Shown in pieces: positions 2,281-20,732 of a stretch of 64,000 bases of DNA. The notes under the pieces are model-generated. The model was not told the origin of the DNA and made no database searches. It saw only the letters and a program-made list of their open reading frames with translations. The stretch covers positions 5,332,001 to 5,396,000 of the forward strand of contig NZ_CP009285.1 in NCBI RefSeq assembly GCF_000758665.1, in the 5' to 3' direction. The position numbers and the translations under genes are program-made. Source of the stretch: Paenibacillus borealis (lineage in GTDB: Bacteria; Bacillota; Bacilli; Paenibacillales; Paenibacillaceae). Numbering within the stretch: position 1 is the stretch's first letter; every line of letters begins with the position of its first letter.

Positions 2281-2757
2281 TTATTTAAAAAGCTTGTTAA
2301 GATTAGCCATTTCGATCGCAGCAGTTGCCGCATCCCAGCCCTTATTGCCCGCTTTGGTTCCGGAGCGCTCAATGGCCTGTTCGATATTCTCGGTCGTCAC
2401 AACACCGAAGATCGTCGGAACGCCTGTCTTGAGATTAATTGCCGCAACTCCTTTGGCAACTTCATTGCACACATAATCATAGTGTGTTGTAGATCCGCGG
2501 ATCACAGTACCCAGCGTGATCACCGCATCATACTTGCCGCTTTCGGCCATTTTTTGCGCGATTAGAGGAATTTCGAATACCCCCGGTACCCAGGCAACAT
2601 CCACTTCATCGTCAGCTACACCATGGCGTTTGAATGCGTCGAGCGCTCCGGAGAGCAGCTTGCTTGTAATGAATTCGTTGAAACGTCCTACGACAACCCC
2701 ATATTTCAAACCCTCGGATACTAAATGTCCTTCAAAATAATTCGGCATTGTGCTCAT
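2281..2757 (-). CDS. ribH: 6,7-dimethyl-8-ribityllumazine synthase
   Basis: RibH condenses 5-amino-6-ribitylaminouracil with 3,4-dihydroxy-2-butanone 4-phosphate to make lumazine, the penultimate step of riboflavin synthesis. The enzyme forms icosahedral shells in Bacillus. Conserved parts are [20 protein letters not shown], the [15 protein letters not shown] loop with its catalytic His, and [14 protein letters not shown] near the end. The start is uncertain: a TTG (2760), ATG (2757) and ATG (2748) lie in frame after GAAGGG. The last gives the family-typical MPNYFEGHL beginning. It is the last gene of the rib operon. Confidence 0.95.
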
Positions 2758-2790
2758 CAACCCTTCATGTATAATTTAGTGATTCTATGA

Positions 2791-4044
2791 TTAAATTTTG
2801 GAATCCTCGTTCTGTTCGATCTTGTCAAAAGTCAGCAGATGGCCAAGCTTGGCCTGCTTCGTATGAAGATACTTGGTGTTGTCCTTGTTCTCCGGCATCT
2901 GGATCGCCACGCGCTCCACCACTTCAAGGCCGTAGCCTTCCAGCCCTTTGATCTTGCGCGGATTGTTGGTCAGCAGTCTGATCTGGCGGACGCCCAGATC
3001 CTTGAGAATCTGTGCACCGATGCCGTAATCACGCAGATCCGCCGCGAAGCCCAGCTTCAGGTTGGCATCTACCGTATCCAGTCCTTCTTCCTGCAGCTTG
3101 TAAGCACGCAGCTTGTTGATCAGGCCAATGCCCCGGCCTTCCTGGCGCATATAGAGCAGCACCCCTCTGCCTGCTTCTTCAATCTGGCGCAGCGCCGCTT
3201 CAAACTGCGGGCCGCAGTCGCAGCGGTGGGAATGGAATACATCGCCGGTCAGGCACTCGGAATGCACACGCACCAGCACCGGCTCATCACCAGAGATATC
3301 CCCTTTTACCAGAGCTACATGCTCTTTGTCATCCACTTCGTTTGTATAGGCAATCGTCTGGAAATCACCGAAATCGGTCGGCAGATTCACCGCTACCTCG
3401 CGGGTAACCAGATGCTCCTTCTCATTACGATAGTGAATGAGGTCCTTGATGCTAATCAGCTTGAGGTCATGCTTCTTGGCGATCTCGATCAGATCAGGCA
3501 GGCGGGCCATCGTGCCGTCAACCTTGACCACTTCACAAATAACGCTCGCCGGATAGGCACCGCACATGCGGGCCAGATCGACAGCGGCTTCCGTGTGGCC
3601 TGAACGCCGTAATACTCCGCCCTTCTTCGCGATCAGCGGGAACATGTGGCCCGGTCTGCGGAAGTCGGAAGGCTTCGCATTCGGATCCAGCATCGCCTTG
3701 ATGGTCATGGATCTTTCCCCGGCGGAAATACCGGTAGTGGTATCCTTGTGGTCAATCGATACGGTAAAAGCGGTGCCGTGGTTATCGGTATTCTGGGCCA
3801 CCATCGGCTGCAGATCCAGTTCCTCTGCACGTTCCGCGGTAATTGGGACGCAGACCAGGCCACGTCCTTCGGTGATCATGAAGTTGATAACTTCAGGGGT
3901 TGCCCGTTCGGCAAGCGCGATGAAGTCCCCTTCATTCTCGCGGTCCTCATCATCCACAACGATAATGACCTTCCCGCGCATCAAATCATAAATTGCATCC
4001 TCAATCGGGTCCAGGACGCTGTCCTTCTTGTCTTGCTGGCTCAT
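2791..4044 (-). CDS. ribBA: Bifunctional DHBP synthase / GTP cyclohydrolase II
   Basis: This fused enzyme supplies both precursors of riboflavin. The N-terminal half (about residues 1-205) is 3,4-dihydroxy-2-butanone 4-phosphate synthase, which acts on ribulose 5-phosphate; it shows [11 protein letters not shown] and the [11 protein letters not shown] motif. The C-terminal half is GTP cyclohydrolase II, with [19 protein letters not shown] carrying the zinc-binding cysteines and RQEGRGIG. Length (417) is slightly above the B. subtilis form owing to a short tail. AGGAGG precedes the ATG. It lies between ribE and ribH in the operon controlled by the FMN riboswitch. Confidence 0.97.
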
Positions 4045-4104
4045 GTTACTGTCCTCCTGATGGCTGTACGCTGCCTTGCCGGCTGCCGTATGCCTAATCT
4101 TTAA

Positions 4105-4773
4105 TTATACAAACCCGTTAGCCGCCAGAAAATCGTGGCTGATCTTCGAGCTCTTCTTATCTTCTTCATCGCCGGAACGTGAACCATAATGCAGCAGATG
4201 ATCCACATACTTGCCTAGCACATCACATTCGATATTGATACTGTCACCCGGCCGTTTGTGGGCCAGCACCGTTTCTCCAAGGGTATGGGGAATGATGGAG
4301 ACAGTGAACGTGGACGACTCCGTATTCACTACGGTGAGACTGATGCCGTCAATCGTAATGGAGCCTTTGGGAATGATATACTTAAACAGCGATTTGCGGT
4401 CCGGCGCAATTTCGAACACGACCGCGTTCTGATCGCGCTTCACGCTGCGGATCTCGCCCGTTCCATCCACATGACCCTGGACAATATGTCCGCCGAAACG
4501 TCCGCCGGCTGCCATCGCGCGCTCCAGGTTCATTTTGCCCCCGGTCCGCAAGCTTTTGAGATTGCTGTTGCGGTACGTCTGAGGCATCACATCGACCGTG
4601 AAAGAATGATCGCCTATGGACGTGGCTGTAAGACAGACCCCATTGACGGAGACACTGTCGCCAATCTTCAGATCACCCATAATGAGGGAGGCGCCGATAT
4701 TCAGCACCATCATCTCACCCCCGCTGGTGACGCTGCGGAGGATACCCACCTCTTCAATCAAGCCGGTGAACAT
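4105..4773 (-). CDS. ribE: Riboflavin synthase, alpha chain
   Basis: Riboflavin synthase dismutates two lumazine molecules into riboflavin plus a pyrimidine that is recycled to RibH. The protein has the expected two lumazine-binding barrels: MFTGLIEEVG at the start, and GGHIVQGHVDGTGEI opening the second at about residue 94. The key SVNGVCLTAT loop and its partner TIDGISLTV are both present. GAAGGAGGGATATA precedes the ATG. Length (222) is normal. It is second in the rib operon, with 62 bases to ribD. Confidence 0.97.
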   Translation of the reverse strand: MFTGLIEEVGILRSVTSGGEMMVLNIGASLIMGDLKIGDSVSVNGVCLTATSIGDHSFTVDVMPQTYRNSNLKSLRTGGKMNLERAMAAGGRFGGHIVQGHVDGTGEIRSVKRDQNAVVFEIAPDRKSLFKYIIPKGSITIDGISLTVVNTESSTFTVSIIPHTLGETVLAHKRPGDSINIECDVLGKYVDHLLHYGSRSGDEEDKKSSKISHDFLAANGFV

Positions 4774-4835
4774 TATATCCCTCCTTCAAAATTACAGTTT
4801 TCATAAATAAAACACTGTCCCTAAATACGCTTCTG

Positions 4836-5936
4836 TTAGCGCGCCGGGGTGCCGCTGATACAGACATTATCCCCGAGCACTTCCACTTCCAATCCTTCCA
4901 GCGTTACCGCATCCCGCATCAGCTCCACGCCCGGGAAGTCGAAGGTTCCTGCTGCTGCTGCGCCGCCCCCGACAATCTTCGGAGCGAAGAAGAGGACTAC
5001 ACGGTCAACCAGTCCCAACTCCAGCATGGCCCCGTTCAGCGTGCCGCCGCCTTCGAGCAGAATCGAACCGATCTCCATCCCGCCTAATGCAGCCATGGCA
5101 GCCTGCAGATCGACACGCGGTCCGCTGCCTGCGGCAACAACCTGAACACCTGCAGCGAGCAATGCTGCCTTGCGGGCCGGATCGGCCGCTTCTGTAGTAA
5201 CGACTACTGTGGGAGCCAGCCCGTCCGTGACTACGGCGCTCTCCAGAGGCAGCCTCAGTGTAGAGTCGATGATAATCCGGATTGGATTCAACCCGGGCAC
5301 ATTTAGTCTGGTCGTCAGTGAAGGATTATCGGCAATCACCGTATTCACCCCGACCATTATTCCCTGATGGCGATGGCGCAGGGTATGTACAAGCTCCCGG
5401 GATTCCGCATTCGATATCCATTTGCTGTCCCCTGTACGGGTGGCGATTTTGCCGTCCAAGGTGCTTGCGCTCTTCAGCGTAACGAACGGCTGCTTCGTCA
5501 GAATGTATTTGATGAACTTCTCATTCAGCCTGAGTGCGCGGCTCCGAAGCAGGCCTACCTCCACCTCAATGCCCTGCTCACGCAGCATCTCAACACCGCG
5601 GCCTGCAACCTGCGGATTAGGATCTTCACAGGCAACGACAACCCTTGCCACCCCTTCATCGATCAGTCTCTGGCTGCAGGGAGGCGTGATACCATAATGG
5701 CTGCAGGGTTCGAGCGTCACGTATGCAGTGCTTCCCTGCGCCTTGCCTGCAGCCATGTTGAGCGCATGGACCTCGGCATGCCCGGTACCGCGCTGCAGAT
5801 GGGTGCCAATCCCGATCATCGCGCCATCCTTCACAACGACACATCCGACCACAGGATTAATCCCGGTCTGACCTTGAGCCCTCTCCGCCATGTCCAGCGC
5901 AAGGGACATATAAAACTCATCATTCATCTTATCCAT
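4836..5936 (-). CDS. ribD: Bifunctional riboflavin deaminase/reductase
   Basis: RibD deaminates then reduces the GTP-derived pyrimidine, two successive steps of riboflavin synthesis. The N-terminal zinc deaminase carries GHAEVHA and EPCSHYG..PPC. The C-terminal reductase begins near KQPFVTLKSASTLDGKIAT and holds LLEGGGTLNGAML. The start was set at the ATG at 5936 because GGAGGG lies eight bases ahead; an in-frame TTG five codons upstream overlaps that site. It is the first gene of the rib operon. The FMN riboswitch and its attenuator lie directly upstream. Confidence 0.97.
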   Translation of the reverse strand: MDKMNDEFYMSLALDMAERAQGQTGINPVVGCVVVKDGAMIGIGTHLQRGTGHAEVHALNMAAGKAQGSTAYVTLEPCSHYGITPPCSQRLIDEGVARVVVACEDPNPQVAGRGVEMLREQGIEVEVGLLRSRALRLNEKFIKYILTKQPFVTLKSASTLDGKIATRTGDSKWISNAESRELVHTLRHRHQGIMVGVNTVIADNPSLTTRLNVPGLNPIRIIIDSTLRLPLESAVVTDGLAPTVVVTTEAADPARKAALLAAGVQVVAAGSGPRVDLQAAMAALGGMEIGSILLEGGGTLNGAMLELGLVDRVVLFFAPKIVGGGAAAAGTFDFPGVELMRDAVTLEGLEVEVLGDNVCISGTPAR

Positions 5937-5989
5937 GTGACTTCCCTCCAATCAGCCGGCTATATTCATAATGTGTACAGTTTAAACAG

Positions 5990-6154: not shown

Positions 6155-6333
6155 GTCAATCTCTCCTTCTTCCATCCAGACTATACTGTCGGTCCCGGAA
6201 TTGCACCAGGTCCACCGTCCGTATCACCAGCATACGGATCGGGTAGCGGACTGAGCAGCAGAACTGGCCAGAAACAGCCATTCTAACAGCATCACCGCCG
6301 GTAGGGAATTACACCCTGCCCTGAAGGATTGAT
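6155..6333 (-). promoter_or_regulatory. FMN riboswitch (RFN element) of the rib operon
   Basis: The minus strand shows the RFN conserved blocks in order: AGGGCAGGGTGTAATTCCC, TACCGGCGGT, TTCCGGGACCGACAGTATAG and TCTGGATGGAAGAAGG. The outer P1 helix can form between CAATCCTTC and GAAGGAGAGATTG. It senses FMN and represses the ribD operon through the attenuator that follows. Confidence 0.95.
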
Positions 6334-7019: not shown

Positions 7020-10000
7020 TTATTCCTGATTCCGGTTCCGTCTGTACACCCGGTGTATCACGAACCCGATTAGGATTAACCCGAGTCCTGCCATATAAAC
7101 CGGCAGCGGGCTGTTCTCGCCAGTCTGCGGCAGGGTCCCGCCGGAGTCTTGTTCCGTGACCGTCCCTTGGGGGATGTCTTCATCTTCAATATCAACACCG
7201 CCGAGCGGAATGTCCTCATCAACCGGCACTTCCGGCTCCGGCGTGACTGGTGCAGGTGTAACCGCTGCTACCGGTGCTGAAGGCTGCACTGTAGCAGGTA
7301 CGCCGGGACCTGCCGGGATTTCCAGATCATCGATAATGATCCCCGGAACAACCGTGCCCGCCGGTGTTGGTACCGGTGTAATATCAGGTGTGACTGGTCC
7401 TGCCGTAGGATTAGGAGTTGCCTCAGGTCCATTCGTTGCCGTTGGAACAGCCGTTGGTCCAGCTGTCTCTACAGGCTGCTCCGTTGGAACCGGAGTGGCT
7501 GTAGGCGCTTCTGTTGGAGCAATGGTGGCCGTCGGTATAGGCGATGGTGTCGGTGTTGCTGTCGGCTGCTCCGCAGGAGTATTTGCTACCGTCAGATTCA
7601 CCGCTGCTGATGAACCGATGGTGACCGGATGCTCACTTGCATCCACAACATAACCGGCAGGTGCTGCAGTTTCGATTAGGACATAGCTGCCCAGCCAGAT
7701 GTTGTTAAATACTGCATTGCCCGCTGCATCAGTAGTCCGGGTATTCACCAGTACACGATCGCTGCCGTTCAGGCGGTACAGCTCAAAGGTTGCTCCGGCA
7801 AGTGCTTTCGTGCCGTCGCCGGCATCAACTTTGTGGACATTCAGCGTGCCTCTGACCCCGCTGCCCGTTCCCGAGCCGCTGGATACGCCCACTATGATCT
7901 CTTTGCTGGTATCCTTATTGACCAGTACGACATTATTACCGCTGAAGTTAACGCTATTGACCAGTTTATCCCCCGTATTCGCTACGATCAGTGACTGGTA
8001 TTCAAGCACATAAGCGGAATGGATATCCTGAAGGAAGCTAAGCACGAAGGTCTGCTTACCCTCGGCATCGGCACTGATATTCAAGGTATAATCCGTATCC
8101 TTTAAGAGCTCAGGCCCGCTCTTCGTAACATCGCCATTCACGGCCGTAACCGTCCGGTACAGATGGAACGTGTCGGGCAGCAGAATCTGATTGGTACTCG
8201 GCACATCGGTGATAACGGCATCCTTCACATGGGACTGCGTCCGGTTAATCGCGATAGTCCACTGCAGCTTATCTCCATTCTGAACGCCATCCTTGAACAC
8301 GTACTCATCGCCATGCGGAATATTCACTGAAGCCTTCAGATCTTTGGAGACCTTCTTCACGCCATCCAGCAGATTGGCCGTGTTTGCAACGGTGGTACCA
8401 ATCAGCTGTCCCGCCAGGCTTGTTTTGAACACAACATAGTAAGGCGAATTAATTGCATTGTCAAAATCCACCTGAAGCTCGTTCCCGCTTCCGACAGTGT
8501 AGCTATAGGCGCTGCCCGCAAGTTCGGTACCGAAGCTGTGAGCCCCTCCGGGAGCAATGTTCATCCGATAGACTTTTAGTGAACCCGGCACCAGTGACTG
8601 GCCGGCGTTCAGTATGTCTTTTATCCGGGGATCGGCAATAGCCTTGCTGTTGTAATTTACACCCACTGTCCAGGTGATCTCTTTGGCAGAGGCATCATAT
8701 ACCCCGGATTTGAAACCGTTGTTCTTCACCTCAGGACCCGGAATGAACTGCCCTCTGGCTTCTGTCCATTGGGCGTTATCCGCGCTGTCCTTCCAGTCGA
8801 TCCGCGCTACGTTAATGAAATTATCTGTAGTGCCTGTAAGCCAGTCATTGCTGAATTCAGTCTGATAACTAATTGTGTATGTGCCGCTGACCGGTGAATT
8901 GAATTTCACCTTGAAGCCTTCGTTAGGCTGCACCGGTGAACTGGCAATTAGGGTATATGCTGAAGCATTAAGCACAGTACCTGCTTCATTGCGTACGACC
9001 AGTGAACCCGGAATATATTTCTGTCCGCCGTACGGGAAACTATCCGTAACCACTACCTGGCTCATCGGATAATTATCGCCGTTCAGCGTAATTTTCCAGT
9101 CCGTTACATGGGTGGCGTAATTGACTCCTGACAGATTCTTATAAATAATGGCCGGACGGATAAGCTGTGTAGCCTTATCGCTGTATGTGCTGTCAGAGAC
9201 CGTGTTGGTAATGGTGGTGTCGCTGAATACGCGGTCCACGGCTTTGGTTTTATATTCGATCAGATATGCAGAGGTCACAGTTCCCGCAAACTGCAGTTTG
9301 AAACCGGTGTTTGTTCCATCAACAACAGGCGTTATGGTGTAGTCTACACCTGCGGTTAGAGCCGTGCCTTTCGTAGCTCCTCCTGCAGAATCCAGCGTCA
9401 CCGGATAAATCCGCAGCGAATCCGCGACCAGCTGCTGGGATTGATTGAATACATCTGTCAGCACCGCATTCTCCGCAGAGATTGTGCGTTTATTGTAGTT
9501 GTACTCAATAGCCCAGGTGATGGTCTGCTTACCCCACTCATAGCTGGCTGCCTTCTTCTTGATGCTTCCCCCGCGTTCGATATCGACAGTAGCCGAGCCG
9601 CTTACCGGATCACGTCCGTCACCGGTGAAGGTAGCGGTATTCGTGAAGCTGGTCAGGCTATCGCTGACCACCTGTGTCGTATAGGCAATACGGTAAGCAC
9701 CTGTGATTACAGGGTCCGTGAAGCGGAGAACAATTGTACCGCCGGAAACGTCAACGGTATATTTACTGCTGTCTACAAGCAGGCCTTGAGTCACTGTACC
9801 GTCAAGCAGAACATTCAGCTGGTACACTGCAAGGGTTACCGTGCTGTCCAGCGTTAATCCGGCAGGAACAGGGTCTGTGACAACCGCATTGCTGACCGGC
9901 TCCAGCTTCTTGTTAACATCCACAGTCCAGAAGATCTGATCTGCATTGAAGCCGCTGGAGACACCCTTCTTCTCAATCGTCGAACCCACGGATGGCTTAA

Positions 10001-10526
10001 ATGCCACGCTAATGGTCTGTATTCCGCCGTTTACCGGAAATAGAATTTGCTGAACCGTACTGCCGCTTATCACCTGTTTATCGAATTTGGTATTAATCCG
10101 CAGGGTTCCTTGTACGTTGTCATGACTCTGGATGTAATCGTTGAAGGTCATGACGACCTGATGTGTCGACTGGCTTACTGTGAACGTCCCGACATCTCCA
10201 TCGTCGGACACGAGTCCGCCCTGGATATCATTGAACAGCTCGAATTGTTCAGGAAGCTGGAAGGTGAAGCTGTCTCCCTGAGTATACCCGTGCCCGTTGG
10301 GAAGCGACCAGGTATAATCCAGCGTAACAGTAGAATCCACATCATATACACTTCCGGTTACGGTCTGTCCATCCGGCCCATACACGGCCATGGATACACT
10401 GGTAATAATATCTCTGTCCTGCTCGATCGCCGCCGCTTTAACCTGCTGGGTGAACCCCAGTCCGTAGGCATACTGCACAAACAGCATGATTATTACAATG
10501 GCCAGACTTGTTCTTTTTTTCACCAT
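7020..10526 (-). CDS. LPXTG-anchored, multi-domain surface adhesin
   Basis: This 1168-residue protein looks like a cell-wall-anchored adhesin. From N to C it has a signal peptide (MVKKRTSLAIVIIMLF...VKAAA), an adhesin head, then a repeated module of about 139 residues seen five times. Each module begins with a W-x-I/V pattern such as QIFWTVDVN, TITWAIEYN, VTDWKITLN, EITWTVGVN or LQWTIAIN, near residues 200, 338, 477, 617 and 755. A SpaA/Cna-B domain follows (about 892-984; KVDAGDGTKALAGATFELY), then a Pro/Thr stalk, and a sortase signal LPQTG (1132-1136), a membrane helix and RRNRNQE. The modules resemble collagen-binding isopeptide domains. The start was moved to 10526: an upstream frame runs to 10748, but only this ATG begins a signal peptide. 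No sortase gene is in the window. Confidence 0.88.
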   Translation of the reverse strand: MVKKRTSLAIVIIMLFVQYAYGLGFTQQVKAAAIEQDRDIITSVSMAVYGPDGQTVTGSVYDVDSTVTLDYTWSLPNGHGYTQGDSFTFQLPEQFELFNDIQGGLVSDDGDVGTFTVSQSTHQVVMTFNDYIQSHDNVQGTLRINTKFDKQVISGSTVQQILFPVNGGIQTISVAFKPSVGSTIEKKGVSSGFNADQIFWTVDVNKKLEPVSNAVVTDPVPAGLTLDSTVTLAVYQLNVLLDGTVTQGLLVDSSKYTVDVSGGTIVLRFTDPVITGAYRIAYTTQVVSDSLTSFTNTATFTGDGRDPVSGSATVDIERGGSIKKKAASYEWGKQTITWAIEYNYNKRTISAENAVLTDVFNQSQQLVADSLRIYPVTLDSAGGATKGTALTAGVDYTITPVVDGTNTGFKLQFAGTVTSAYLIEYKTKAVDRVFSDTTITNTVSDSTYSDKATQLIRPAIIYKNLSGVNYATHVTDWKITLNGDNYPMSQVVVTDSFPYGGQKYIPGSLVVRNEAGTVLNASAYTLIASSPVQPNEGFKVKFNSPVSGTYTISYQTEFSNDWLTGTTDNFINVARIDWKDSADNAQWTEARGQFIPGPEVKNNGFKSGVYDASAKEITWTVGVNYNSKAIADPRIKDILNAGQSLVPGSLKVYRMNIAPGGAHSFGTELAGSAYSYTVGSGNELQVDFDNAINSPYYVVFKTSLAGQLIGTTVANTANLLDGVKKVSKDLKASVNIPHGDEYVFKDGVQNGDKLQWTIAINRTQSHVKDAVITDVPSTNQILLPDTFHLYRTVTAVNGDVTKSGPELLKDTDYTLNISADAEGKQTFVLSFLQDIHSAYVLEYQSLIVANTGDKLVNSVNFSGNNVVLVNKDTSKEIIVGVSSGSGTGSGVRGTLNVHKVDAGDGTKALAGATFELYRLNGSDRVLVNTRTTDAAGNAVFNNIWLGSYVLIETAAPAGYVVDASEHPVTIGSSAAVNLTVANTPAEQPTATPTPSPIPTATIAPTEAPTATPVPTEQPVETAGPTAVPTATNGPEATPNPTAGPVTPDITPVPTPAGTVVPGIIIDDLEIPAGPGVPATVQPSAPVAAVTPAPVTPEPEVPVDEDIPLGGVDIEDEDIPQGTVTEQDSGGTLPQTGENSPLPVYMAGLGLILIGFVIHRVYRRNRNQE

Positions 10527-10748
10527 TTCCCAGAAGCCCCCGTTCTTTAGTTTGATATGAAACAAGCATGCAGAAAAGATGGCTGCTGAACGCACCGGTA
10601 AAAACACTCCGCCTGATGGGTCGTTATGTATACGGGCATATGCGTCCATCTTATGTAAATAAACTGATAGTCCTGCCTTTTCTGTCCAGCCCGAACGATA
10701 TATACTTATATCACCTAAGAGTAGATCTTTAGAATCAGATATATTCAA
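10527..10748 (-). promoter_or_regulatory. Structured leader of the adhesin gene, class unknown
   Basis: Ahead of the adhesin ATG, the minus strand can fold AAGATGG plus ACGCA (about 10638-10650) with TGCGT and CCATCTT (about 10576-10600), enclosing roughly 40 bases that include CCCATCAGGCGGAG. The frame stays open through this part, but the translation does not look like protein N-terminus. I compared it with c-di-GMP-I, FMN and purine riboswitch patterns and found no match. It may be a regulatory leader. Confidence 0.35.
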
Positions 10749-13730: not shown

Positions 13731-16637
13731 CTACGACTTGTTTTCTTCCTCCTGGACAGGCGGCATCCGCGTATTATCTCTGGTTTTGTTGAAGGAAGGC
13801 CTTGTTTTGGAGCTGAGCACCGGCTGGCGCAGGATGATCTCACCCATCGCTTTTGCATTAAATGGTATAAACGGCCACATGTAAGAAGAATTGTAGGAAC
13901 GGTGAGTGGTCAGCAGCACCACAAGCAGCGTCGTCCCTATCATGAAGCCGGGAACCTGGAAGGCAGCCACGGCGAGCAACAGCCCAAGCCTGACAATCCG
14001 GTTGGCCAGCCCCAGCTCATAGCTCGGCGTTGCGAACATCCCGATTGAAGCTACCGCCATATAGAGCACCACCTCGTTGACAAAAAGACCGGTCTGCACA
14101 GCGATGTCGCCTACGAGAATGGCAGCAATCAGACCCATCGCCGAGCCGAGCGGTGTAGGTGTATGGACAGCGGCCATCCGCAGGAGATCAACCCCTAATT
14201 CAACGATTAAAAATTGGGCGATAAGCGGGATTTTTGCCGTCTTTTGCGGACCGATAAATTCCAGCATCGCCGGCTTCAGCTCCGGATGGAGGACCAGCAG
14301 CATCCACAGCGGCAGCAGGAACATCGAGGCAAAGATACCGATGAAGCGCACCCAGCGCAGATAGCTCCCCATAAAAGGCGTCTGGCGGTTTTCTTCCGCA
14401 TGCTGGCAGAGATCAAAGAAGGTCGTCGGCAGAACCATGACACTTGGTGAAGTATCCACAAAAACCACCACTCTGCCCTCCAGCAGATGCGAGGCCACAA
14501 TATCCGGCCGTTCCGAGTACCGGACCAGCGGATAGGGGTTCCAGCCGCCGCCGACAATGGCCTCCTCGAGCTGTTTGTCAGCCAGGGGAATCCCGTCGAT
14601 ATCGACGCTTTTCAGCTTATCGGTAACAGCCTGCACCTGAGTCTTGTCGACGATATCGTCAATATAGGCTAAGCAGACATCCGTCCGGGTGCGGCGTCCG
14701 ATCTGATGCATCTCGTATTTCAGCCCCGGGTCGCGGATCCGCCGTCTGACCAGAGCCACGTTACTCAGCAGCGTCTCCGTGAAGCCGTCGCGCGCTCCGC
14801 GGACGACCCGTTCAATCGAAGGCTCATCCGGGCTGCGTGAAGGATACGAACGGGTATCCATGATAATAACCTGGGATTCACCCTCGATGAAGAACACGCT
14901 CATACCCGACAGGACTTTATTGATGCTCTCGCTGAGCAGCTCGCCTTTCTCTACCTGGACATGGGGAATATATTCGCTCATGAAGCTGGCGAACACATCG
15001 GTGGATATATTATCCGGGGTCAGATAGGTCAGACGCTTCAGAATCTCGTCGATGATCGTATCCTTGGCGAACCCGCTGATGCAGAGCAGTGCAACGCGCC
15101 GGCCTCCAAAGGACATTTCCCTAAAAACGATATCAAAGGATGAGCCCAGGCCCATGACTTCGGTCAGCGTTTTTTTGGTATCCTCCAGGTCAGCCGATAC
15201 CTTATCATTGCCCTGCCAGTACAGGATAGACTGCTCCAGAGAGTCGGAACGTTCATTGTCGCGTTTCTGCTGGAGCAGATCCTTGGGCTTGCCGGCGGAG
15301 TCCGCCCCTTGACTGGACTTGGCCTTCTTAGATTTGCTGTTGGATTTCTCCTTATCCTTATTCTTATCCTTAGCCTTCTGAGGTGCTTCCTCTTGTTCAG
15401 TATCACCTGTCCCATCGCTCTGCGCCTGCCTGGACGAAGCCCCTTGCCCCCCTGCCGCTCCAGTAGAGTCCTCTTCCCCATCCTCAGGTTCTTCATCATC
15501 CCCGAACAATCTGGCAAAAAAACCTTTATGGCTCTTCTCCTGCGTCTCTGCACCCAGTTCATCCGAGGTCTCCGTATCCTGTGACTGGCTCCCTGGGGCT
15601 GGTGCTGCCGGTTGGTCATCACCTGAACCTGAAGCTGTGCCCCGGCCATCGTCAGCAGCCGATGCCGTAGCTTCCTGCTTGTCCTCATCGTCCGCTCTAG
15701 TTCCCGGAGCAGTGTCAGCCCCCGTATCCGAATGATCCTGACGGGCCTTCGCCGGCCCCTCCTGATCCGGTGTACCGGCTCCATCAGAAGCCTGCAGATC
15801 GTGGTCACCGTAACCGGTTGCCCCGGAATCCACTCCGATATCCGCACCGGGTTCCGGTTCCCCGGTATCTTTGCCTCCTTGAGCAGCTGAGGCGGCATCT
15901 CCCTGGGACCGGTCCGGCTGGCCAAGCTCGTCCGCAGCTTCAGTATCCTGATTCTGTCCGCCACCGGAGCCTGTCCCCGCTCCGGCTCCTTGTTCCGGCC
16001 CTGCATCATCGCCGAACAAACTGGTCAGGAATCCCTTGACCCCGCCGCCGGACTCCTGGCTATCCTGATCGTCTCCGGCGGCGTTGCTGTCCTCCGCTGT
16101 GCTTCCGGAAGAATCGTTATCCGCTGCGCCTCCTGTTTCACGGCTGTCCGCTGATGTGCTGCCGGTCGCCTTGGCATTCGCCGCTCCCCCAGCATCATGG
16201 CTGTCCGGCGCTGTACTGCCTGTAGCCGCACGGTCCGCTGCGCCCCGAGCATCACGACCTTCCGCTGCCGTACTGCCGTCAGACTCTGCTTCAGAGGTCC
16301 TGCCTTCAGCACCCGGACCGGCATCCATGCCGGAGCGGCTTTCGGCACCGCCCTCTATCGGCCGGTTAACTGCTCCAAGTTCAGCCGAAACCTCCGCATC
16401 CTGCGTATAGCTTCCAACCACACCATCCTGCTGTGCAGCTTGTCCATCCTGCTCCGGCTGGCCACTGTCTGCACCACCCTGCTGTGCAGCTTTTTCTTCA
16501 TGCTGCTGCGGCTGGCTTTCATCTACAATATTTTGCTGTGCAGCCTGACCTTCATGCTGCGGCGGCTTTTGCTGTGCCGGCTTGTCTTGCTTTTTATTGT
16601 CTTCCACCTGATCACCGCTGTGAATATACCTAACCAC
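13731..16637 (-). CDS. spoVAF: SpoVAF/GerA-family protein with long acidic N-terminal extension
   Basis: The C-terminal 515 residues match SpoVAF/GerA-type spore membrane proteins: RSDSLEQSILYWQGNDKVS, then PYPLVRYSERPDIVASHLLEG and VFVDTSPSVMVLPTTFFDL, followed by about five membrane segments. The first 450 residues are unusual. They are rich in Gly, Ala, Ser, Asp, Glu and Gln and look disordered. They hold QAAQQ repeats, three QD(T/A)E..xELG copies (about residues 79, 230, 353) and two near-identical KGF(L/F)xxLFGDD motifs (about 201 and 371). A Lys-rich stretch (KAKDKNKDKEKS) joins them to the core. GTG at 16637 was chosen: GGAGG is at 16645-16649 and it lies just after the spoVAB stop. 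B. subtilis SpoVAF is about 490 residues, so this one is nearly doubled. Confidence 0.88.
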   Translation of the reverse strand: MVRYIHSGDQVEDNKKQDKPAQQKPPQHEGQAAQQNIVDESQPQQHEEKAAQQGGADSGQPEQDGQAAQQDGVVGSYTQDAEVSAELGAVNRPIEGGAESRSGMDAGPGAEGRTSEAESDGSTAAEGRDARGAADRAATGSTAPDSHDAGGAANAKATGSTSADSRETGGAADNDSSGSTAEDSNAAGDDQDSQESGGGVKGFLTSLFGDDAGPEQGAGAGTGSGGGQNQDTEAADELGQPDRSQGDAASAAQGGKDTGEPEPGADIGVDSGATGYGDHDLQASDGAGTPDQEGPAKARQDHSDTGADTAPGTRADDEDKQEATASAADDGRGTASGSGDDQPAAPAPGSQSQDTETSDELGAETQEKSHKGFFARLFGDDEEPEDGEEDSTGAAGGQGASSRQAQSDGTGDTEQEEAPQKAKDKNKDKEKSNSKSKKAKSSQGADSAGKPKDLLQQKRDNERSDSLEQSILYWQGNDKVSADLEDTKKTLTEVMGLGSSFDIVFREMSFGGRRVALLCISGFAKDTIIDEILKRLTYLTPDNISTDVFASFMSEYIPHVQVEKGELLSESINKVLSGMSVFFIEGESQVIIMDTRSYPSRSPDEPSIERVVRGARDGFTETLLSNVALVRRRIRDPGLKYEMHQIGRRTRTDVCLAYIDDIVDKTQVQAVTDKLKSVDIDGIPLADKQLEEAIVGGGWNPYPLVRYSERPDIVASHLLEGRVVVFVDTSPSVMVLPTTFFDLCQHAEENRQTPFMGSYLRWVRFIGIFASMFLLPLWMLLVLHPELKPAMLEFIGPQKTAKIPLIAQFLIVELGVDLLRMAAVHTPTPLGSAMGLIAAILVGDIAVQTGLFVNEVVLYMAVASIGMFATPSYELGLANRIVRLGLLLAVAAFQVPGFMIGTTLLVVLLTTHRSYNSSYMWPFIPFNAKAMGEIILRQPVLSSKTRPSFNKTRDNTRMPPVQEEENKS

Positions 16638-16651
16638 CCCGTAGCCTCCTT

Positions 16652-17077
16652 TTACTGTCGGTATACAAACCAGTCGAACAATGAACCTGCCACTTTGCCG
16701 CATACCATAGCCATCAGCAGCCCGAACAACAGATGTGTCATATGCAGCCTTTTAGCCAGAATCGGCAGGACGTTTAGCACCTCCGTTAACGCAGCGGCAA
16801 GCATACCGATGAATACACCGTCTAACAGACCGACTCCCAGCTCTATGAGCGGTCCCGCTGCTATTTTCCAGTTCCAGAAATCACTCATTGTGCCTAGCAG
16901 TGAACCGCCGACCATCGCTCCTTCATACCAGTGCACTTTATCGTAGGAGGAGGTCAGCTGCGCCAGCCTGGGCACCATATCAAGCACGATAAAAAGAGCG
17001 ATTACCCCGCCGCCGACAGCGATCCCTCCGGCAATGCCGAGCAGCAGGTTAAGTCCAAGCGATATTTGTGCAGTCAT
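16652..17077 (-). CDS. spoVAB: Stage V sporulation protein AB
   Basis: SpoVAB is an inner-forespore membrane protein of the spoVA operon, which is needed to move dipicolinic acid into the spore. The 141-residue protein has about four membrane segments (LGLNLLLGIAGGIAVGGGVIALFI at the start) and the family pattern YDKVHWYEGAMVGG. Two starts are possible. A GTG at 17083 overlaps the spoVAA stop as GTGA, but GGAGG at 17085-17089 is only one base from it; the ATG at 17077 has good spacing and is preferred. Confidence 0.85.
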   Translation of the reverse strand: MTAQISLGLNLLLGIAGGIAVGGGVIALFIVLDMVPRLAQLTSSYDKVHWYEGAMVGGSLLGTMSDFWNWKIAAGPLIELGVGLLDGVFIGMLAAALTEVLNVLPILAKRLHMTHLLFGLLMAMVCGKVAGSLFDWFVYRQ

Positions 17078-19264: not shown

Positions 19265-20230
19265 TTAATTCTGTTTGATAAGCTCAACCTGACGGCTCTG
19301 CTGGCTCGAAATAAAGAACAGCGCCGTCCAGATCAGTGCAAAGCCGATAATTTGCGGCAGAGTCACAAGCTGTTGATATACAATCCAGTTGATCAGAATT
19401 CCTGTCATCGGGAAGCTGAGTTCAGCCAGAGTGGCTACAGAAGCCTTGGTTGTGTTCAGACCTTTGTAATAGAGCAGCATACTGAGCAAACCGGGCAGCA
19501 AAGCCTGCAGCAGCAGATTAATGGCAACAGCAGCCGAACCGCTGATACCTCCGCTAATCTGCCACGGAGCTCCCTCCATGCTGGTGATCACGAATAAAAG
19601 CGGCAATGCCAGAATAAAGCGCAGTGAAGTTACAGTTTCATATTTCATCGAGCCCAGCAGATAGCGGCCCATAACAGTCGACCCGCCCCATAATGCGGCG
19701 GCGCCCAGCGCCATAAGACTCCCTACACCCATGAAGCTGTTCACATGGCCGAACGGAATCGTCCATCCGAAGGTAAGGAGATAAGTGCCGGCCAGTGCAA
19801 CAATGATCAGCAGTGCGAAATTTTTAGGCAGGCGTTCTTTAAGAATAACAGCGGCCAGACCAATGGCGAACAGCGGCTGCAGCTTTTGCAGCAGCAGTAC
19901 AGCATTGAAATCTCCGCTGGACAAGGCTTTGGTGAACAGAATCGTAGCCAGGGCTGATCCGCCCCATGACACAACCAGTAGTGCTCCGGCTTGACGCAGG
20001 CGAATGCCCTTCAATTCTGCGCGTTGGCGCCACATCACAGGTGCAGCCACCAGGAAGAGCACAATATGCTCCAGCAGGACGATCTGTGAAGAGGTCAGTG
20101 ATTTCAGCAGGATAATACGGAACAGCGGGTCAACACCCCATAGGGCAGCGCCCAGAACTACCAGCCAGAATCCGCTGCGCAGCGGTGCGGTACGGACTCC
20201 TTGAGATGAAGCAGATACATTACTCATCAT
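19265..20230 (-). CDS. EamA/DMT-family transporter, candidate riboflavin carrier
   Basis: The 321-residue protein has the ten membrane segments of the drug/metabolite transporter superfamily as two EamA halves (about residues 18-150 and 165-310). LLVVSWGGSALATILFTKAL and LSFPMTGILINWIVY are characteristic stretches. GAGG-type site AAGGAG precedes the ATG at 20230. What makes it notable is the FMN riboswitch and attenuator directly upstream: this places it under FMN control. The proteobacterial carrier RibN also belongs to the EamA family, so riboflavin uptake is the most likely job. The substrate is inferred from regulation, not from any residue. Confidence 0.85.
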   Translation of the reverse strand: MMSNVSASSQGVRTAPLRSGFWLVVLGAALWGVDPLFRIILLKSLTSSQIVLLEHIVLFLVAAPVMWRQRAELKGIRLRQAGALLVVSWGGSALATILFTKALSSGDFNAVLLLQKLQPLFAIGLAAVILKERLPKNFALLIIVALAGTYLLTFGWTIPFGHVNSFMGVGSLMALGAAALWGGSTVMGRYLLGSMKYETVTSLRFILALPLLFVITSMEGAPWQISGGISGSAAVAINLLLQALLPGLLSMLLYYKGLNTTKASVATLAELSFPMTGILINWIVYQQLVTLPQIIGFALIWTALFFISSQQSRQVELIKQN

Positions 20231-20266
20231 TCATTCTCCTTGTCGATACAAACCCTCGATAAGAGA

Positions 20267-20313
20267 CCAAAAGCCCCCGCGTCACCTGTAAACAGGGCAA
20301 ACAACGGGGGCCA
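20267..20313 (-). terminator. Attenuator between second FMN riboswitch and EamA gene
   Basis: GGCCCCCG pairs with CGGGGGC around a 25-base loop and is followed by TTTTGG on the minus strand. Its place between aptamer and gene fits transcriptional attenuation. Confidence 0.75.
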
Positions 20314-20358
20314 TTATCAATAAAGACATCAGGGAATACCCCGCCGCCTTTACCTTAT

Positions 20359-20501
20359 GATCCTCTCCCATCCGGACTTTACCGTCGGCTCTGGATTGTC
20401 ACCAGATCAGTCGCTTCCTCTTGTGAAAGAGTAACGAGTCGCGGGCTTAGTTCATTCAGAACATCACCGCCGGTCAGGAATTTCACCTTACCCCGAGAAT
20501 C
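20359..20501 (-). promoter_or_regulatory. Second FMN riboswitch (RFN element)
   Basis: The minus strand carries the RFN blocks GGGGTAAGGTGAAATTCC, TGACCGGCGGTGATG, GCCCGCGA, GACAATCCAGAGCCGACGG and GTCCGGATGGGAGAGGATC. GATTCTC and GAGGATC can form the closing stem. It lacks one or two of the most common bases, for example GAGCCGACGGTAA in place of GGGACCGACAGTA, yet the whole arrangement is clearly RFN. It controls the EamA transporter. Confidence 0.93.
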
Positions 20502-20732
20502 TTGTATTCTGTTATTATTTTCACAATCTCAGGATAACTCCGTTTCTTGAATTCGTCTAGCCTTTTTATGAAAATAAGCATACTTTTTTTCATCGAGCGA
20601 TCATTTTTTCGTGAAAATACATCATTCCGCATTTATACACACTATAGAGTTTGGCAGAAACGGAGGCATGTTATAGAATAGGTTACAAATGAACTATTCA
20701 TCCATAATATAGTAATCTCAACGGAGGCCGCT
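20502..20732. other. Intergenic region with no gene seen
   Basis: A/T-rich sequence between the EamA leader and the PstS-like gene, which diverge. It should hold both promoters. No convincing repeat or reading frame was seen. Confidence 0.5.

Follow-up and report, generated by a model that had tools for sequence, protein, structure and literature searches.

A predicted riboflavin importer of the ImpX clade, preceded by an FMN riboswitch, in Paenibacillus borealis

Within a 64,000-nucleotide stretch of the Paenibacillus borealis genome (hereafter the window), an FMN riboswitch precedes a gene for a transporter of the EamA/DMT superfamily, and the two very probably form a single-gene unit for riboflavin uptake that belongs to the ImpX clade, in which an FMN OFF switch governs a secondary importer of the DMT type. 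The most likely function of the transporter is riboflavin import of the known ImpX kind, because the riboswitch–transporter pair is conserved and because the protein is related to ImpX, whose Fusobacterium nucleatum member is reported to take up riboflavin (PMC4418817).

Aptamer, transporter and leader

The FMN riboswitch aptamer (RFN element) lies on the minus strand at 20356–20504, where the complete RF00050 model (positions 1–138) matches with 115.5 bits against a gathering threshold of 66.2 (E 3.2e-26). The RF00050 alignment places it close to the family consensus; as judged by its sequence it is a canonical FMN switch and is predicted to bind FMN. It is followed on the same strand by a leader with a terminator-like hairpin and then by the EamA gene at 19265–20230, which encodes 321 amino acids from the first ATG; many orthologs possess just the second ATG (20227) at this position, which would give 320 amino acids. 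PF00892 is the sole match of the protein (105.9 bits against a cut-off of 28.2), and the ECF S-component families PF12822 and PF07155 are not matched. These results bear out the full RFN element, the attenuator and the EamA family assignment that an earlier, sequence-only reading of this DNA had put forward. In the list of open reading frames the nearest large ORFs on either side are on the opposite strand, and the EamA gene therefore seems to be a single-gene unit. Elsewhere in the window, the minus strand encodes a large surface protein with collagen-binding, SpaA and Ig-like domains (7020–10748) and a 990-residue ORF (13731–16703) with a very long low-complexity N-terminal part followed by a part that resembles spore germination GerA by eye.

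An AlphaFold2 model built with 35 sequences (mean pLDDT 86.9, pTM 0.83) has DMT transporters as its closest solved structures among the 50 matches listed, including the choline importer LicB (7paf_A, TM 0.74 normalised by the model), and none of these 50 is described as SLC52. We take structure 5i20 to be YddG. LicB and the other DMT structures have their fold in common with the model, although the identity is 14% and the substrate differs, and a search of solved structures by sequence gave no match. Named relatives among the 120 listed are mostly from Paenibacillus, the closest with 97% identity.

The leader was compared with those of orthologs, using 64 leaders that correspond to 68 loci (L006–L073) minus four repeats of the same genomes; L036–L065 had been picked as the 30 best aptamer matches, and the remainder as transporter matches. 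In the window leader, a hairpin predicted with ViennaRNA (20319–20354, minus strand) lies between the aptamer and an intrinsic terminator at about 20269–20312 (minus strand), whose arms GGCCCCCG and CGGGGGCT are followed by TTTT. On the 3' side of this terminator, positions 20235–20268 are nearly invariant in the genus and contain a TCTCTT that can pair, as read by eye, with the AAGGAGA ribosome site. Under a single and fairly loose rule, which asks for six or more stem pairs with 5 G-C, followed by four or more T in seven bases, a terminator is present in 56 of the 64 ortholog leaders, as compared with 20 of 1280 dinucleotide-shuffled leaders. The arms co-vary between leaders, for example GGCCCCCG/CGGGGGCT and AACCCCCG/CGGGGGTT, as read by eye and not by a formal score. 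A simpler terminator scan accepts only loops of 3–8, which places the hairpin at 20269–20312 outside its reach; it reported one other site (20343–20330), which is at chance level, since shuffled sequences averaged 2.2.

Eight leaders fail the loose rule (L030, L036–L039, L044, L056 and L057), and in six of these (L036–L039, L044 and L057) we saw by eye no G+C-rich hairpin with a T run, so that control is not uniform. These same six loci were also assigned a TTG start by the ribosome-site rule. When the window leader is cut before the 3' arm of the terminator and the 5' strand of P1 is blocked, ViennaRNA pairs the 3' bases of the aptamer with eight bases in the 5' arm of the terminator, which costs 3.4 kcal/mol. 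We propose this alternative pairing as a putative antiterminator and as a proposal only; by minimum free energy the shift is not general across the 56 leaders, occurring in 14 of 56 with P1 blocked and in 18 of 56 with P1 free.

Because terminators follow the aptamer in 56 of 64 leaders, an FMN OFF switch acting by attenuation is likely, and a second, translational layer of control through an anti-SD helix is possible. When FMN is plentiful, it would be bound by the aptamer and P1 would close; the terminator at about 20269–20312 would then form and transcription would stop ahead of the gene. Scarcity of FMN would permit read-through and synthesis of the DMT permease, which would import riboflavin as a secondary carrier alongside the cell's own rib operon, which has a riboswitch of the same FMN class in front.

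Conservation of the pair and riboflavin genes of the same genome

Only two RF00050 matches were found in the 8.16 Mb genome, the one at 20356–20504 and a second at 6160–6332 (minus strand, 102.7 bits). The latter precedes a ribD-ribE-ribBA-ribH operon (2281–5951, minus strand) recognised by the Pfam families RibD_C, Lum_binding, DHBP_synthase with GTP_cyclohydro2, and DMRL_synthase, and as judged from these genes the cell can make its own riboflavin. A RibU-like ECF S component is encoded as well (L004 1435–2004, genome position G000:C1:6237757–6238326; NF010182 with 255.4 bits against a cut-off of 99, PF07155 with 168.7 bits), so riboflavin uptake may be redundant; no FMN aptamer was found at its locus. 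RibU stands for Firmicute riboflavin uptake, the role predicted for the window gene, and is under an FMN switch in many cases (PMC4418817), but it belongs to a different Pfam family, and the RibU-like component of this genome is without the switch. RibU homologs that are free of FMN control, and whose substrate is left open, are also noted in that paper (PMC4418817).

The riboswitch–transporter pair is widely conserved. Within the genus, 93 of 100 genomes (P. borealis included) have an ortholog with E < 1e-80; RF00050 was found upstream at all 20 congener loci submitted to cmscan, and at each of the 68 loci L006–L073 two core motifs of the aptamer are followed by a long ORF. In the family sample, RF00050 matches occur in 196 of 197 genomes, and their number goes together with the transporter: all 129 genomes with at least two matches have an ortholog with E < 1e-90, as against none of the 67 with exactly one, and the one genome without a match likewise has no such ortholog. 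At the level of loci, 129 of 130 strong family loci have the riboswitch upstream. A listed aptamer lies 121–397 bases upstream on the same strand in 122 of them, and aptamers were recognised at seven more, six by cmscan and one by a core motif (L071); the single exception is a second transporter copy in one genome (G195, L270 602–1597), where no FMN riboswitch was found.

Beyond the family, the class sample of 398 genomes has orthologs in 23 genomes of four other families (47–63% identity), 18 of them with an aptamer 129–239 bases upstream. At the other five loci (in G452, G433, G423, G403 and G329) not even a weak aptamer match was found, and among the neighbouring ORFs of these five and of the second G195 copy (L292–L297) no riboflavin gene was recognised by eye. 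At phylum level there are five new genomes with an ortholog, and an aptamer is present at four of the five loci; the Alicyclobacillus-type member has relatives in Desulfitobacterium and Desulfosporosinus at 62–68% identity. A search of viral contigs with the family alignment gave 55 pattern matches and no relatives.

As far as our searches reach, the family-wide pairing of riboswitch and transporter in Paenibacillaceae is new. No paper on an FMN riboswitch/EamA pairing in Paenibacillus was found in the literature search, in which some papers mentioning both Paenibacillus and the FMN riboswitch were known by listing alone, and the words Paenibacillus, EamA and DMT are absent from the main text of PMC4418817.

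Kinship with ImpX

A tblastn search of a plasmid collection with the Alicyclobacillus-type member returned two records, one from Thermomicrobium roseum and one, of 2.1 Mb, from Fusobacterium vincentii. The Fusobacterium homolog (L290 2974–3873, ATG at 2974 and stop at 3873; EamA 100.8 bits) is preceded by an FMN aptamer at 2761–2876 (118.2 bits). Of the reverse primer published for F. nucleatum impX (PMC4418817), the core matches the opposite strand at 3890–3910 of this locus with mismatches at 3 of 21 positions, 17 bases past the stop of the gene, and none of 200 shuffles matches. For the forward primer, a 16-base core matches at 2520–2535 with 3 mismatches, about 225 bases upstream of the riboswitch, although 3 of 200 shuffles did so too; its 21-base core has no match at the locus. 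On the strength of the FMN riboswitch and the published primer matches we take this gene to be the impX ortholog of F. vincentii, and by direct comparison this ortholog belongs in the EamA/DMT superfamily.

The window protein is homologous to the F. vincentii protein over its length (111 bits, 33% identity over 275 residues), and closer to that of Desulfitobacterium (P0247; 276 bits, 50%) and to that of Thermomicrobium (162 bits, 44%). In two trees the ImpX-like group, with Fusobacterium included, forms one side of a branch with support of 95/96 and 96/95, and RibN and the paralogs from the P. borealis genome fall outside it; the Fusobacterium sequence sits on a long branch, and its exact position is uncertain. 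An LQKxQP motif is present in 112 of the 118 family entries, among which some loci recur, as compared with none of 23 RibN or paralog proteins, and Fusobacterium has it. To call an ortholog, the 2015 survey (PMC4418817) demanded more than 38% identity to F. nucleatum ImpX over 80% coverage, which is a search threshold and not a property of the family; the 33% found here lies below it, measured against F. vincentii instead of the F. nucleatum prototype, and we therefore claim membership of the ImpX clade in a broad sense.

The ImpX proteins of F. nucleatum and Desulfitobacterium hafniense resemble the window transporter in having the FMN riboswitch directly upstream, in standing as a lone gene in a cell with its own riboflavin pathway, in EamA/DMT membership and in tree group; they differ in that identity is 33% to the Fusobacterium protein and 50% to the Desulfitobacterium one, and in that riboflavin transport by the window protein is predicted from kinship. 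Control of impX by FMN is already reported for Desulfitobacterium (an FMN riboswitch in D. hafniense) and Fusobacterium (PMC4418817). The suggestion of the sequence-only reading that the carrier might be of a kind not yet described therefore does not hold for a protein within this clade; its proposal of a riboflavin carrier finds good support in the conserved pair and the ImpX kinship.

An improbable alternative is that riboflavin or FMN leaves the cell through the transporter, or that its cargo is a breakdown product of flavins, with efflux set by the FMN switch. Many DMT proteins are exporters, and relatives of this one bear names such as 'multidrug transporter'. However, 56 of 64 leaders have a terminator downstream of the aptamer, which agrees with an OFF switch of the sort found at biosynthesis and import genes, and F. 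nucleatum ImpX acts as an importer in a complementation assay, where it rescues an E. coli ribB mutant, a riboflavin auxotroph, at low riboflavin (PMC4418817). We infer that the window protein, too, works in the direction of import, with riboflavin as its probable substrate.

The F420-linked side branch and the comparison with RibN

Members of the clade from Thermomicrobium roseum and three further genomes (G1001, G1033 and G1028) cluster together in the tree (support 81/95), and no FMN aptamer was found at the side-branch loci L289, L291, L298, L301 and L302. In T. roseum the DMT gene stands in a run of cofD, cofC, DMT and an FbiB-like nitroreductase gene (L291 1392–4605). G1033 has the order F420-type LLM oxidoreductase, DMT, cofC, F420 reductase npdG, cofE and cofD (L301 2998–8193), although its cofD match, with 235.1 bits, falls short of the curated cut-off of 257.45. 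Behind the DMT gene of G1001 come a PucR-like regulator, cofC and, farther on, cofD (L298 5702–12500), which is cut by the end of the stretch and likewise scores under the cut-off (200.7 bits); three of 15 genomes of the order of G1001 have the DMT gene. No cof gene was recognised near the DMT gene of G1028. CofH, one part of FO synthesis, has a match over the cut-off in the T. roseum plasmid, and none was found in G1001, G1033 and G1028, which are drafts with completeness of 97%, 90% and 93%, so that a missing match does not prove that the gene is lacking.

FO is the precursor of F420 and a deazaflavin close to riboflavin in shape. Given this resemblance, the F420 neighbourhood points, independently of the riboswitch, to flavin-like substrates for the clade, and the lack of a CofH match in G1001 and G1033 beside their cof genes suggests uptake of the deazaflavin FO in the side branch. 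We tentatively extend this to a reading that we hold to be possible but somewhat short of an even chance, in which the ImpX clade would be a broader DMT family that handles flavin-like ring compounds, its riboswitch-bearing branches importing riboflavin and its riboswitch-less branch (T. roseum and the Bacillota G1001 and G1033, in F420 clusters) moving FO. As far as our searches reach, a riboswitch-less side branch in F420 gene clusters is new; in the available text of an F420 review (PMC8498797) 'transporter' is used a single time, of a putative ABC exporter.

The same side branch, located in F420 gene clusters, is what could favour a different substrate for the window protein, namely another metabolite linked to the flavin status of the cell, for example a deazaflavin or a precursor of riboflavin, carried by an FMN-switched DMT protein. 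We consider this unlikely, since no riboswitch was found at the side-branch loci and the riboflavin-transporting ImpX type is among the riboswitch-bearing members.

RibN, the riboflavin importer of Rhizobium leguminosarum and related alphaproteobacteria, is also an EamA/DMT protein behind an FMN riboswitch, and is found only in Proteobacteria according to the available text of PMC4418817. For comparison, RibN was taken from Ensifer: of 15 FMN aptamers found in ten rhizobial genomes, two, in that genus, front an EamA gene, and these Ensifer proteins match at 79% R. leguminosarum proteins named riboflavin transporter RibN at NCBI. FMN riboswitches on plasmids were set aside as a source of RibN: six of ten records are annotated as ribB (3), ribH (2) or ribD (1) behind the match, and the other four are unannotated there, with ORFs that in three of them read by eye as ribH or ribB.

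The profile comparison with RibN that the sequence-only reading had proposed was carried out, and it showed no specific kinship. BLASTP gives 24.3 bits over 42 residues between the window protein and RibN, and nine RibN proteins reach 5.0–14.6 bits with the HMM built on the window family, below two paralogs from the P. borealis genome (L179 with 49.3 and L183 with 46.2). Profile-profile comparison gives 84.7 for the family against the RibN alignment and at most 77.9 against paralogs, which were entered as single sequences; a single RibN (P0164) gives 67.7, no more than L179 (77.9) or L183 (67.9). In three trees the window family and RibN are separate, well supported groups on very long branches, and the RibN proteins tested are without the LQKxQP motif. 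Orthology to the EamA importer of Proteobacteria, which would make the transporter a RibN in a Firmicute, is therefore highly improbable in spite of the shared EamA protein behind an FMN riboswitch and the higher score of the RibN alignment, and we rejected RibN as a model on the BLASTP, HMM and tree results, which do not indicate orthology to R. leguminosarum RibN.

With the window transporter read as a member of the ImpX clade, FMN switches would govern riboflavin carriers in two EamA branches, RibN and ImpX, that show no specific kinship. In the side branch there is a candidate importer of deazaflavin, and if it does move FO, then G1001 and G1033, with cofC and cofD near the DMT gene and in G1033 also cofE, would live on imported FO. 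For the relatives in Paenibacillus and Alicyclobacillus, annotated at source as nothing more specific than 'DMT family transporter', 'EamA' or 'multidrug transporter', there is now a testable function in riboflavin uptake.
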